A stretch of 24,464 nt of DNA from a virus. Each line of letters opens with the position of its first letter. Positions within the stretch are counted from its first letter, which is position 1. The DNA is taken from positions 1 through 24,464 of IMG/VR virus record IMGVR_UViG_3300032893_000270; one strand, given 5' to 3'. A model generated the notes under the pieces. That model made no database searches and had not been told where the DNA came from. It saw only the letters and a list, made by a program, of their open reading frames with translations. Shown here piece by piece: positions 4 through 4,053 of the stretch. Both the position numbers and the translations under genes were made by a program.

Positions 4-363
4 ATGCGCGACGCGATCGACGCCCGCGGAATGTCCGGCCTGATCGCGAAGGACGGCGAAACCGCGCTGGCGAACGAAGTCGCGCAACTGGACGCGGCGA
101 AGGCGGGCGATCCCGAACCGCACAAGGCGGCGCCGTTCGATCCGCTTATGTCAATGCACTGGCATTTCACGAACGACGCGATCCGCTGCGGCGGGCTGTA
201 CCTGATGACGGAGAACCCGGCGGCGGAAGACGGGCATTACTGCCCGATCTGCGAATTCGTGAAGCACTCGAAAGGCTTCGTCGCGACTGAAGCGATCGGG
301 TCGGTCGCCGACCAGATGGCCGAATATTGCCGGGCTGAAGGACTGATCCCGAAGCCGCAATAA
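4..363 (+). CDS. Hypothetical phage protein with CPIC motif (possibly 5'-partial)
   Basis: I do not recognise this family. From the ATG at 4 it reads 119 residues, with a charged Ala-rich N-terminal half (about 1-45) and a compact C-terminal half with Cys62, His78, Cys80, Cys83, His88 and Cys109. The Cys-Pro-Ile-Cys pair next to two histidines could bind a metal, but that is inference. The frame is open to the left edge, so the true start may lie outside the window. However, bases 2-6 read TGATG, which would fit a stop-start overlap with a preceding gene in the style used elsewhere here. It ends six bases before the first inverted repeat of the structured segment. It probably belongs to the phage region upstream of packaging. 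Confidence 0.6.
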   Translation: MRDAIDARGMSGLIAKDGETALANEVAQLDAAKAGDPEPHKAAPFDPLMSMHWHFTNDAIRCGGLYLMTENPAAEDGHYCPICEFVKHSKGFVATEAIGSVADQMAEYCRAEGLIPKPQ

Positions 364-368
364 CGCTC

Positions 369-588
369 TGCCCGCCGCGCTTCGCATTCATCGCGAAGTC
401 GGGACGCCGATCAAAGCGGCGGGCATGACTTCGCCTGTAGCGCCGATGAAGACCGGATAGTCGGCGCTGGTCCCTCCAAGACTGCTTCGACAGGTCCGGC
501 CGAAATTCCAGTTCCCCGCGGACCACCGGGGAAGGGCGGTCCCGCATGGCGCACCGTGCGGGGCCGCCTCGACGTGGTTCAAATCGAG
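369..588 (+). other. Gene-free segment with five consecutive inverted repeats (candidate structured leader RNA or DNA site)
   Basis: The 236 bases between the first gene and the ParA gene hold no convincing ORF but a dense run of inverted repeats. A perfect 10-bp stem (369-378 with 416-425) encloses a 6-bp hairpin (380-385 with 393-398). A perfect 8-bp stem pairs 439-446 with 461-468. A perfect 7-bp stem pairs 512-518 with 527-533. A 12-bp stem with one G-U pair joins 535-546 to 557-568. A 5-bp stem joins 568-572 to 584-588. The arms differ in sequence, so this looks more like a folded RNA than repeated protein-binding sites. A folded 5' leader for the parA-terminase operon, a small RNA, or a packaging or partition site are all possible. 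No U-run follows any stem. Confidence 0.4.
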
Positions 589-599
589 AGGACATCGAA

Positions 600-1259
600 A
601 TGGGTCAACCGCTTTTGGTTATCGTCGGCGCCGACAAAGGCGGCGTCGGCAAGACGACCGTCAGCCGAACGCTGATGGATTGGTTCGCGGCGCAGGGCAT
701 GGACGCCCGCGGCTTCGACACGCAGGTTCCGAAGGGCGTCCTGAAGCGCTTCTTCCCGGGCAAGACCGAACTGGTCGACATCACGACCATTGACGGTCAG
801 ATGAAGGTCTTCGACACGCTGAACGGCTCGTCCGTCACCGTGCTGGACCTTGCGGCCAGCTTGCTGAAGCCGGTTCTGGACGCGCTGCGCGAAACCGGGT
901 TCGTGCAGAAGGTCGCCGAAGGGAAGGCGAAGATCGCCGTCATGCATATCGTCGGGTCGTCGGTTGCCTCGCTGGACGAAGTCAAGACGATCGCAGACGA
1001 CGTCGCCGGGCTTCAGCTGTTCGTCGTGTCGAACCCGGTCAGCGACGCGCCGCCGTCGAAGGACTTGCTGAAGGGCTTCACTGTCATCGAATTCCCGAAG
1101 CTGGCGGATCATGTTTATCAGCTGATCGACCGGGCTTCGCTGCCGGTCAGCGAGTTTATCGCGTCGACCGAACCGAATTCGCCGACGGCGGCCGGTTACG
1201 CGCGCAGCTGGCTGGCGAAGGTCTTCGCCGCGTTCGAAGTGACGCGGTTTCATCGCTGA
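600..1259 (+). CDS. ParA/MinD-family P-loop ATPase
   Basis: This 219-residue protein starts MGQPLLVIVG and carries the deviant Walker A motif KGGVGKTT at residues 13-20, including the signature lysine of the ParA/Soj/MinD family. A hydrophobic VLDLA strand at 81-85 (Asp83) is the likely Walker B. Family members bind ATP, dimerise and position DNA or protein cargo. I chose the ATG at 600: a GAGAGG ribosome-binding-like stretch lies at 586-591, whereas the in-frame ATG at 546 sits inside a strong hairpin and adds a poorly structured arginine-rich tail. No ParB partner is visible; the next gene is a winged-helix DNA-binding protein, which might play that part. ParA proteins are unusual in a packaging cluster. 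The role (segregation of a plasmid-like prophage, or help in packaging) is unknown. Confidence 0.85.
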   Translation: MGQPLLVIVGADKGGVGKTTVSRTLMDWFAAQGMDARGFDTQVPKGVLKRFFPGKTELVDITTIDGQMKVFDTLNGSSVTVLDLAASLLKPVLDALRETGFVQKVAEGKAKIAVMHIVGSSVASLDEVKTIADDVAGLQLFVVSNPVSDAPPSKDLLKGFTVIEFPKLADHVYQLIDRASLPVSEFIASTEPNSPTAAGYARSWLAKVFAAFEVTRFHR

Positions 1260-1264
1260 CGGCC

Positions 1265-1639
1265 ATGTCCGAAATCCAGCGGCTTCGGGATCGCGTCGAA
1301 GAACTGGAAGAACTGCTTGGCATTGGGCGGGATGACCTCGCCCAATACCGCGACGCCCTGAAGGTCAAGGGCAGCAAGCTTAAAATCTTGGGCGCGCTGA
1401 TGAAGCGCAACGTCACCATCAGCCGGGCCGCGCTCTTGACAATGTTGCAGGGCGCGCGGCCCGGGGATATCAGCGACGAACGGCTGATCGACGTGCATGT
1501 CTGCACCCTGCGCAAGCGCCTGCCGACCGGCGTGACGATCCGCACCGATTGGGGCGTCGGATACTACATGGACCGGGCGAGCAAGGACGCGCTGCGCCGG
1601 TTCGTTGCAGAGCGGGGCGGCCATGCCGACGAAGCGTAA
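1265..1639 (+). CDS. Stand-alone OmpR/PhoB-type winged-helix DNA-binding protein
   Basis: This 124-residue protein has a charged, coiled-coil-like start (about 1-30) and then a C-terminal winged-helix domain of the kind found in OmpR-type response regulators. A recognition-helix-like stretch DERLIDVHVCTLRKRL lies at 71-86, followed by a wing strand ending in WGVGYYM at 96-102, the hallmark end of this domain. There is no receiver domain and no phosphorylatable aspartate context, so it cannot be an ordinary two-component regulator. The gene starts five bases after the ParA stop and overlaps the terminase small subunit gene by 17 bases, so the three are co-translated. It could be a phage transcription regulator or a DNA-binding partner of the ParA protein or terminase; the sequence does not decide. 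Confidence 0.75.
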   Translation: MSEIQRLRDRVEELEELLGIGRDDLAQYRDALKVKGSKLKILGALMKRNVTISRAALLTMLQGARPGDISDERLIDVHVCTLRKRLPTGVTIRTDWGVGYYMDRASKDALRRFVAERGGHADEA

Positions 1640-2120
1640 GGGCGTATCGGCGAACGTCTGCGGGGCGCATCTGGACCTGTCGCGGGTCCGGATCGTCCAG
1701 CTGGTCAACGAAGGGGCGCTGCCGCGAAACAAGGACGGAAGCTTCGATCTGGACGCATGCCGGATCGCCTACATCCGTTATCTTCGCAGCGAGGATCGTC
1801 GCGGGTCGAAGTCGGCGCAGGCGTCCCGCGTTCAGGAAGCCCGGGCCAAGGAAATCGAACTGCGCACCGCGCGCGAAGAAGGTCGTCTTTGGGATGCTGA
1901 CGCAGCCGAAGCGGTCTTCGCCGAAATCCTCGGGACTTTCCGCAGCGAGCTTGGCGGCGTCCCGGCCGGCTCTACGCGCGACCTTGCGGTCCGCGCCGAA
2001 ATCGAAAAGCGGCTGAATGATGCAATCGATCGATGCGACGCGCGCATTGCGGACGCAGCGCGGAATTTACGCGCTGACAAGGAAGGCGGCGACGTGGAAG
2101 GCGAAGAACCAGACGCCTGA
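1623..2120 (+). CDS. Terminase small subunit (Nu1-like DNA packaging protein)
   Basis: This 165-residue protein sits directly before the large terminase. Its N-terminal part (about 10-55) resembles the winged helix-turn-helix of lambda Nu1: a short helix pair, then LVNEGALPRNKDGSFDLDAC, matching the turn, wing and 'residue read from template' pattern of that family. The middle (about 65-115) is strongly charged and helical, and the C-terminal region is predicted to be helical with an acidic tail. Small terminase subunits bind the packaging start site and load the ATPase-nuclease onto DNA. I prefer the ATG at 1623 over a TTG at 1605. Its 3' end overlaps the large-subunit gene by 104 bases. Assignment rests on position and the N-terminal pattern. 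Confidence 0.75.
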   Translation: MPTKRKGVSANVCGAHLDLSRVRIVQLVNEGALPRNKDGSFDLDACRIAYIRYLRSEDRRGSKSAQASRVQEARAKEIELRTAREEGRLWDADAAEAVFAEILGTFRSELGGVPAGSTRDLAVRAEIEKRLNDAIDRCDARIADAARNLRADKEGGDVEGEEPDA

Positions 2121-4053
2121 CGAATGGGGCGCGGAAAACCGCATCTATGGTCCGGAAACCGGCGTCCCCGGGCGCCGCAATCCGTACCTGACGCCGTACG
2201 CGGTCCCGTTCGCGCGAAGCTTCGCCGACCCGAAATACAAGCGCGTCGTCTGCGTCATGGGCGCGCAGATGGCCAAGACGGAAACCTTTCTGGACGTCAT
2301 CGGCGAACGTCTCGACAACCGGCCGGCGCCGATCCTGTATGTCGGGCCGTCGAAGGAATTCGTTACCGACCAGTTCGAACCGCGGCTGGTCGGGCTGTTC
2401 GAGCAGTCTGAAACGCTGAAGGCGAAGGTCGTCGGCGGGATCGACAGCAAGCGGCAGAAGAAAACGCTTAAGCGCGTCGCGGGCGTCCGCGTCCGCTTGG
2501 CGCATGCGGGATCGTCGACGGCGCTGAAGTCCGACCCGGCCGCGATCGCGCTGGTCGACGAATATGACGAAATGCTGTCGAACGTTAAGGGGCAGGGCGA
2601 CCCGCTGGGCTTGGTCGAAGCCCGCGGCTTCACTTACGCAGATTTCTGCGTCGGCATCACTTCAACCCCGTCGCTTGGCATGGTCGAAATCGATCGCGAT
2701 CCGGCGACAGGGCTGGAATTCTGGAAGGCCGGCGAGGAAGACGACGTTCAGTCGCCGATCTGGCGGCTTTGGCAGGAAGGGACGCGGCATCATTGGGCAT
2801 GGCCCTGCCCGCACTGCGGCGAATACTTCATTCCGCGGTTCAACCTCCTGAAATGGCCGAAGACCGCGACGCCGGCGCAGGCACGAAGGGAAGCTTACAT
2901 CCAATGCCCGCGCATCGATTGCGGCGGCGTCATTGAGGAGAAGCACAAGGCGGCGATGAATGCCCGCGGCCGCTACGTCGCGCCGGGTCAGGCGATCGAC
3001 CGCGACGGCAACGTCACCGGCGACGTGCCTGAAACGTCGACGCTGTCGTTTTGGGTCAGCGGGCTTTGCTCGCCGTTCGTATCGATCGGGGCGCGCGCTG
3101 AAACGTACCTGATCGCGCTGCGGTCGAACGAAAGCGCGAAAATCCAGACGGCGACGAACGCCGAATTCGGCGAAGTCTATGTCGACGGGTCGGGCGACGT
3201 CCCGCCATGGGAAGAAATCTTCGCGCGGCGCGGTTCTTACGCGCCGCTGACCGTCCCGGAGGATGCGCGCTATCTGACCTGCGGCGTCGACGTCCAGAAG
3301 ACGCGGCTGGTCTTCGTCGTTCGCGCATGGGGCGCGCGGGCGACGTCATGGCTTGTCCAGCACGGCGAGCTATGGGGCGAAACGGCGCAGCCTGAAGTCT
3401 GGCAAGACCTCGCGCAGCTGTTAACCGCACCGATCGACGGCGACCTGATCAAGGTCGCCTTCATCGATAGCGGCTTCCGGCCGGGAAAGAAGGAAGGCGT
3501 CCCCGTCAACCGGGTTTATGAGTTTTGCCGGCGCTTCAAGCGCTTTGCTTTCCCGACGAAAGGTTCGTCGGTTAAGCTTGTGCGCCCGCTGGTGAAGTCG
3601 ACGATCGAAGTCAAGCAGGACGGATCGGCGCAGAAGTACGGGCTGGAGCTAATCCGCTTAGACACCGATCATTGGAAGTCGTTCGTTCATGAACGGCTGA
3701 AATGGCCGAAGGATCAGCCCGGCGCGTGGCATCTGCACAAGGACGTCACCGAAGACTATTGCCGCCAGCTGGTCGCCGAAGCGCGCATCGTGCTTCCGAC
3801 CGGCAAACCGCAGTGGATCGAACGTTCGCGGGAAAATCACTTTCTGGACGCTGAAGCGATGGCTGGCGCGGCCGGCTATCTGCTTAACGTCCAACATCTG
3901 CGCGGCGGTCTGTCCTCTCCCGCCGATCAGGGGGCATCGGCGCCGGCGGCGGCCTCAACGTCGGCGCCGGCGTCACCTCCTGCGCCGGCCGTTGCCGCGG
4001 CCGTCGCGAAGAAGAACCGCTTCGCCGATCTGGCGGCGCGCCTCAACCGATAG
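2017..4053 (+). CDS. Terminase large subunit, lambda gpA family
   Basis: This 678-residue protein is the packaging motor ATPase and genome-cutting nuclease. Lambda gpA landmarks appear in order: an N-terminal TPDEWGAENR segment (33-42) like lambda's AVEWADAN; a Walker A-like MGAQMAKTE at 81-89; Walker B IALVDEYDE at 177-185; a Cys-rich pair CPHCG near 264 and CPRIDCGG near 300, as in the gpA zinc-like region; and RNase H-like nuclease acidic residues in CGVDVQ (near 425), FIDSG (near 483) and NHFLDAEA (near 611). Lambda gpA is 641 residues, so the length fits. The last roughly 45 residues are a low-complexity Ala-Pro-Ser stretch (about 630-668) before a basic end. The ATG at 2017 is favoured because the N-terminus aligns with lambda gpA, although it overlaps the small subunit gene by 104 bases. 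Confidence 0.95.
   Translation: MMQSIDATRALRTQRGIYALTRKAATWKAKNQTPDEWGAENRIYGPETGVPGRRNPYLTPYAVPFARSFADPKYKRVVCVMGAQMAKTETFLDVIGERLDNRPAPILYVGPSKEFVTDQFEPRLVGLFEQSETLKAKVVGGIDSKRQKKTLKRVAGVRVRLAHAGSSTALKSDPAAIALVDEYDEMLSNVKGQGDPLGLVEARGFTYADFCVGITSTPSLGMVEIDRDPATGLEFWKAGEEDDVQSPIWRLWQEGTRHHWAWPCPHCGEYFIPRFNLLKWPKTATPAQARREAYIQCPRIDCGGVIEEKHKAAMNARGRYVAPGQAIDRDGNVTGDVPETSTLSFWVSGLCSPFVSIGARAETYLIALRSNESAKIQTATNAEFGEVYVDGSGDVPPWEEIFARRGSYAPLTVPEDARYLTCGVDVQKTRLVFVVRAWGARATSWLVQHGELWGETAQPEVWQDLAQLLTAPIDGDLIKVAFIDSGFRPGKKEGVPVNRVYEFCRRFKRFAFPTKGSSVKLVRPLVKSTIEVKQDGSAQKYGLELIRLDTDHWKSFVHERLKWPKDQPGAWHLHKDVTEDYCRQLVAEARIVLPTGKPQWIERSRENHFLDAEAMAGAAGYLLNVQHLRGGLSSPADQGASAPAAASTSAPASPPAPAVAAAVAKKNRFADLAARLNR

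Follow-up and report, generated by a model that had tools for sequence, protein, structure and literature searches.

The gap ahead of the ParA and terminase genes of an uncultured bacterial virus very probably holds a real, conserved and structured RNA element on the + strand. The stretch analysed, referred to here as the window, is the linear 24,464-base IMG/VR virus record IMGVR_UViG_3300032893_000270, and the element occupies about 145 bases in the gap between two of its genes. In its predicted fold, a three-way junction (P1/P2/P3) is connected through a conserved linker to two tandem hairpins (H3 and H4), and the reading as a structured RNA is based on the maintenance of base pairs by compensatory change in a related virus together with the better folding of the + strand. 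As to its role, a cis-acting element working at the level of transcription on the operon that follows is the leading single reading, which we put forward tentatively.

Genomic setting and relatives

The gap (364-599) is preceded by a small gene and followed by genes for a ParA/MinD-type ATPase, a winged-helix protein, the small (TerS) and large (TerL) terminase subunits, the portal and further structural proteins (Table 1). All genes around the gap lie on the + strand. The upstream small gene has no Pfam or PHROG family. The ParA protein is a small single-domain ATPase with the motif GADKGGVGKT; in the window its gene heads the packaging genes, with no ParB noticed alongside. Small ATPases of this type are encoded in many phage contigs as well as in Bradyrhizobium loci, at varying gene positions (the window, L002-L006, L009, L010 and L121-L199).

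Searches with the terminase genes led to a relative, IMGVR_UViG_3300037466_002523 (hereafter L009), whose TerS is 88% identical to that of the window and in which a gap of 185 nt separates the same pair of upstream and ParA genes. The core of the window's gap aligns with a segment of this shorter gap, which starts no more than a few nt after the stop codon of the upstream gene. A third relative, L010 (TerS 82% identical to its L009 counterpart), has the same genes with about 780 bases containing other open frames between the small gene and ParA; these extra frames (L010:624-1192) stand where the window and L009 carry the element. No copy of the element was found in L010, as full-model scores with filters off were insignificant, and the one match there was limited to a short GTCCGGCCG..GAAATTC stretch. 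In both relatives the winged-helix gene is absent and TerS directly follows ParA, so that this gene is a lineage-specific insertion or loss.

Table 1. Features in and around the gap, with positions in the window
Feature	Position	Strand	Remarks
Small gene with a C-x2-C pair (HxCPxCEF motif)	4..363	+	Homologues in L009, L010, L096 and L097
Hairpin I	369..425	+	Perfect 10-bp stem (10+7 bp overall); z -3.94 alone; not in the conserved core
Conserved structured RNA core (three-way junction, H3 and H4)	426..569	+	Homologous to L009:505-652; all pairs kept
P1 of the three-way junction	433-438/490-495	+	GCCUGU/ACAGGU; innermost pair U-A here, C-G in L009
P2 hairpin	439-447/460-468	+	9 pairs; one double change (A-U/G-C) and two one-sided consistent changes relative to L009
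P3 hairpin	469-472/480-483	+	Weak in the window, 6 bp in L009; paired in both sequences
Linker GGTCCGGCCGAAATTCC	493..509	+	Invariant; first three bases part of P1; identical in L009 up to GAAATTC
H3 hairpin	512-518/527-533	+	7 bp; arms invariant in both sequences; loop CGGACCA conserved
H4 hairpin	535-547/556-568, extending to 549/554	+	13 pairs kept in L009; two double changes (A-U to G-C, U-G to G-C)
ParA/MinD-type ATPase gene, first downstream of the gap	600..1259	+	Pfam CbiA 3.5e-6; PHROG 164 ParA-like; 67% identical in L009
Winged-helix gene (Trans_reg_C)	1265..1639	+	
Terminase small subunit gene	1623..2120	+	PHROG 57 / PHROG 15 pair for TerS and TerL
Terminase large subunit gene	2017..4053	+	Pfam GpA_ATPase and GpA_nuclease

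A conserved fold maintained by compensatory changes

When the L009 segment is folded alone, both the minimum free energy and the centroid structures give the three-way junction followed by H3 and H4 (z -4.28; 0 of 200 shuffles), and the window retains every pair of this fold. Indeed, 100% of the pair cells are paired in both sequences and in seven pairs (three in P3, four elsewhere) both sides differ between them, while no such double change appears when the partners are slid. Since the gaps of the padded alignment (A5) were placed by hand, which matters mainly for P3, the three double changes of P3 count as weak evidence. With P3 left out and the structure taken from L009 alone, the 39 remaining pairs contain 11 substitutions; all of these pairs are still intact, and in four of them both sides have changed. 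In a simple randomisation of the same number of substitutions, again without P3, the probability of keeping all pairs is 5e-4, and that of also obtaining at least four double changes is about 1e-5, the covariation being that of one comparison between two sequences. For the three stems that had been defined from the window alone the corresponding value is P = 0.0026. In parallel, RNAalifold yields -75.3 kcal/mol on the + strand, against a mean of -39.2 kcal/mol for shuffled columns (z -8.5), and only -55.8 kcal/mol on the - strand. Conservation also extends to the unpaired positions, 40 out of 55 of which are identical to L009 over the whole element; in particular, the P2 loop, which carries the conserved CCGGAUA, the linker and the loop of H3 are nearly invariant, and H3 and H4 are separated by one nucleotide in both sequences.

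The initial annotation, made from the window only, had described five successive hairpins and named four stems, all of which were found at the positions it gave. The perfect 10-bp stem 369-378/416-425 and the stem 512-518/527-533 are present as described, 439-446/461-468 extends to 447/460, and the stem given as 12 bp at 535-546/557-568 is in fact 15 bp long (535-549/554-568) with a 4-nt loop. The row of five hairpins did not hold as an arrangement: in the core, a three-way junction (433-495) is followed by two hairpins (512-533 and 535-568), and hairpin I lies outside the conserved unit. The latter directly follows the stop codon of the upstream gene and is present only in the window, as it is missing from L009, the only homologous locus; parts of it are weakly similar (10-15 nt) to 429-450. 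Homologues lacking compensatory changes had been named as the finding that would speak against a folded RNA, and in L009 such changes are present. Of the kinds of RNA that had been suggested (leader, sRNA or packaging RNA), the folded RNA they have in common stands, and nothing specific for a packaging RNA emerged.

Folding energy gives a less distinctive picture. The + strand of a 237-nt segment folds better than 200 of 200 dinucleotide shuffles (z -3.55), whereas the - strand of the same 237 nt folds more weakly (z -1.80). Among 2,436 windows of 120 nt on both strands, after regression on GC content, the best one of the segment deviates by only -2.46 sd; energy alone cannot set the segment apart because some 20 GC-corrected windows elsewhere deviate more. 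In this GC-rich phage, folding as strong as that of the segment is seen in many coding stretches, and hairpin energy was discarded as proof of an element since other windows of the same genome fold equally well. It is the comparison with L009, rather than energy, that singles out the segment. This comparison also bears on the view that the gap is GC-rich intergenic DNA without function, in which inverted repeats and conservation arose by chance. Equally strong folding elsewhere and the use of two sequences only agree with it; however, a non-coding segment has been conserved here without the loss of any pair and with four double changes outside P3, which makes this view highly improbable.

Coding was considered as another source of conservation, as a short conserved protein would have told against an RNA. 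The window and L009 have no long frame in common, the longer ones being interrupted by several single-base indels between the two sequences. A short open reading frame at 425-460 ends at the same TAG in both sequences, with changes that are all non-synonymous and none synonymous, and the in-frame upward extension of ParA to the ATG at 546 is not kept in L009. Judging from these frame comparisons, the segment does not code for protein.

Alternative pairings and resemblance to leader RNAs

The core of the window, when folded alone, has an alternative fold about 1 kcal/mol better than the three-way junction, and a switch between the two folds is possible according to these energies. Moreover, GGTCCGG in the linker (493-499) is complementary to both the P2 loop (453-457/495-499) and the H3 loop (493-498/519-524), and could pair with either of them; both complementarities are invariant and thus lie outside the covariation. 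These features are what might be expected of a riboswitch, or of a protein-binding autoregulatory leader of the ParA operon, in which the junction would bind a ligand or a repressor: a loop of the three-way junction able to pair with the linker just after P1, and two folds that exclude each other while being similar in energy. Like the bacterial leader RNAs and riboswitches of Rfam, the element is a structured RNA before an operon, with a junction and a possible loop-tail pairing. Unlike them, it has no Rfam match at the gathering score, for riboswitches or otherwise, but sub-threshold scores only; no expression platform reaching the ribosome-binding site is seen, and ParA homologues elsewhere lack the element. 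A riboswitch or autoregulatory leader is accordingly a distinctly improbable reading.

Distribution of the element

No Rfam family reached its gathering threshold on the element, riboswitches and self-cleaving ribozymes included, and permissive scans of both copies (E up to 10) returned sub-threshold scores to sRNA, miRNA, snoRNA and hammerhead models only. ARAGORN detected no tRNA or tmRNA. The hammerhead was rejected, its sole match scoring 13.8 bits on the - strand. A covariance search, which the initial annotation had called for, was run with a model of the element (R1) over 97 first-round and 78 ParA-selected sources, and meaningful scores were obtained at two places only, the window and L009. 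A general leader of ParA genes was discarded, as most ParA homologues are without the element and, among the 80 IMG/VR ParA loci listed and searched with the model, only L009 has it. The exact linker motif GGTCCGGCCGAAATTC has four matches in IMG/VR, three of which are without the rest of the element. Phage and plasmid records contained nothing comparable, a Bradyrhizobium phage match being to ParA coding sequence only. About 1,170 distinct alphaproteobacterial genomes, drawn from around a Bradyrhizobium genome at the family, order and class levels, yielded no relative in TerS, model or DNA searches, a weak silence given the limited first-look candidates and the strict filters of the model search over 392 of the genomes. 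The short DNA matches in genomes mainly resemble the P2 hairpin and look like chance. Overall, no third copy was found in the IMG/VR, phage and plasmid records or in the alphaproteobacterial genomes searched.

A proposed cis-acting element and competing explanations

In the mechanism that we propose, the core would be transcribed on the + strand within a polycistronic phage mRNA, and the transcript would fold into the three-way junction, the linker and the tandem hairpins. The folded RNA would then act in cis on the downstream operon (ParA, winged-helix protein, terminase, portal and so on), most likely through the transcribing polymerase, whose entry into these packaging and morphogenesis genes it would control by antitermination or attenuation. 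A cis element in a polycistronic message fits the position and the orientation of the segment, the lack of sigma-70 promoter and U-tailed terminator signals in positions 1-1000, and the conserved unpaired segments; between co-directional genes and shortly ahead of the start codon of ParA, the element is placed as expected of an intercistronic one. Against the cis-acting reading, L010 has the same gene pair without a detectable copy, so the function is dispensable or replaced there. Transcription, action in cis and the effect on elongation are all deduced from the sequence, with effects on mRNA processing, stability or translation as alternatives to the last, and a role of this kind is thus offered as a tentative preference.

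The compact, highly structured and intergenic nature of the element, with its conserved unpaired segments, would also suit an sRNA of the phage, about 145-180 nt long, that is made independently and acts in trans. However, a scan for the sigma-70 consensus found no promoter-like site in positions 1-1000 of the window, where no U-tailed terminator is seen either, and in L009 the core starts so close to the upstream stop codon that there is no room for an intergenic promoter. A trans-acting sRNA is therefore rather improbable.

Hairpins between two co-directional genes could instead process or stabilize the mRNA, by blocking exonucleases or by directing cuts by RNase III or RNase E, and thereby lead to unequal amounts of upstream and downstream message. 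The very stable H3 and H4 (15 bp), and the strong hairpin I that the window adds just after the upstream stop codon, are compatible with this explanation. Plain stability hairpins need no conserved loops, though, whereas here the loops of P2 and H3, as well as the linker, hardly vary, and a three-way junction is more elaborate than required. An intercistronic processing or stability element thus appears unlikely, if still worth weighing.

The segment might also act as DNA. Packaging sites are expected near terS, and cos sites of the lambda type contain dyads. The element has dyads, and it could in principle be a cos site comprising a nicking site and TerS binding sites. In VP882, whose large terminase is 43% identical to that of the window, the ends of the record (L104:1-9 and L200:790-798) share GGCGGCAAA, about 200 bp before terS, in keeping with cohesive ends that the record includes at both termini; in addition, a motif CCGAAATT(C/T)CAG recurs near TerS in L011. 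Yet the TerS-proximal DNA of L011, L112, L115, L019 and L024 has a different common block, and L010, with a closely related TerS, has no copy of the element. There is no direct-repeat family in the L009 gap, a result that also led us to reject a direct-repeat operator despite the occurrence of GGTCC copies, and the compensatory changes and the preference for the + strand point to RNA. On balance, a packaging site within the gap is improbable. The common block, AGGGACC(G/T)T ... TTTGAGCATATTTC, is found at L011:1490-1612 and upstream of TerS in L112, L115, L019, L021 and L024, and L010 carries part of it at L010:2-53, ahead of the small gene, with 79% identity to L112 (E 2e-10 in a small local set). 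This conserved block is a candidate packaging site of the phage group. Given its position in L010, the window's phage more likely has its packaging site to the left of the window, outside what the window shows, than within 364-599.

Comparison with known phage RNAs

The cis-acting, transcription-level reading has a precedent in the put-type RNAs, which suppress pausing and termination through the zinc domain of the polymerase beta' subunit. To our knowledge, RNA-only control elements have rarely been described outside lambda-like phages. The put RNA of HK022 (putL/putR), of about 70 nt with two stem-loops, serves the early operons as a cis-acting antiterminator that acts on RNA polymerase by itself (PMC9378689). 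Like HK022 put, the element would be a phage RNA ahead of phage genes with two close tandem stem-loops, H3 and H4 being one nucleotide apart in both copies; unlike put, it has an added conserved three-way junction and precedes packaging genes. The resemblance is one of layout and not of membership, and antitermination is suggested here by analogy. The more specific proposal of a protein-independent, cis-acting antiterminator of an alphaproteobacterial-type phage, combining a put-like hairpin pair with a conserved three-way junction and without a match to a known family, is itself improbable on present evidence.

Among packaging RNAs, the pRNA of phi29, which works with the gp16 ATPase (PMC6765105), is likewise a phage RNA with a three-way junction. 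The window, in contrast, encodes a gpA-type terminase rather than a phi29-type gp16, and the element matches no Rfam family. With respect to cos of the lambda type, the likeness lies in the expected proximity to terS and in the dyads, while the difference is that the TerS-proximal block of the relatives is another sequence, found elsewhere in L010.

The element would be of less interest if it were an array of stability hairpins or part of a packaging site. Phages regulate the timing of expression of their packaging and structural genes. The element, a conserved RNA of compact size and defined fold ahead of a terminase operon, offers a candidate for such control that can be tested directly, in a group of environmental phages without an isolated close relative in the collections searched.
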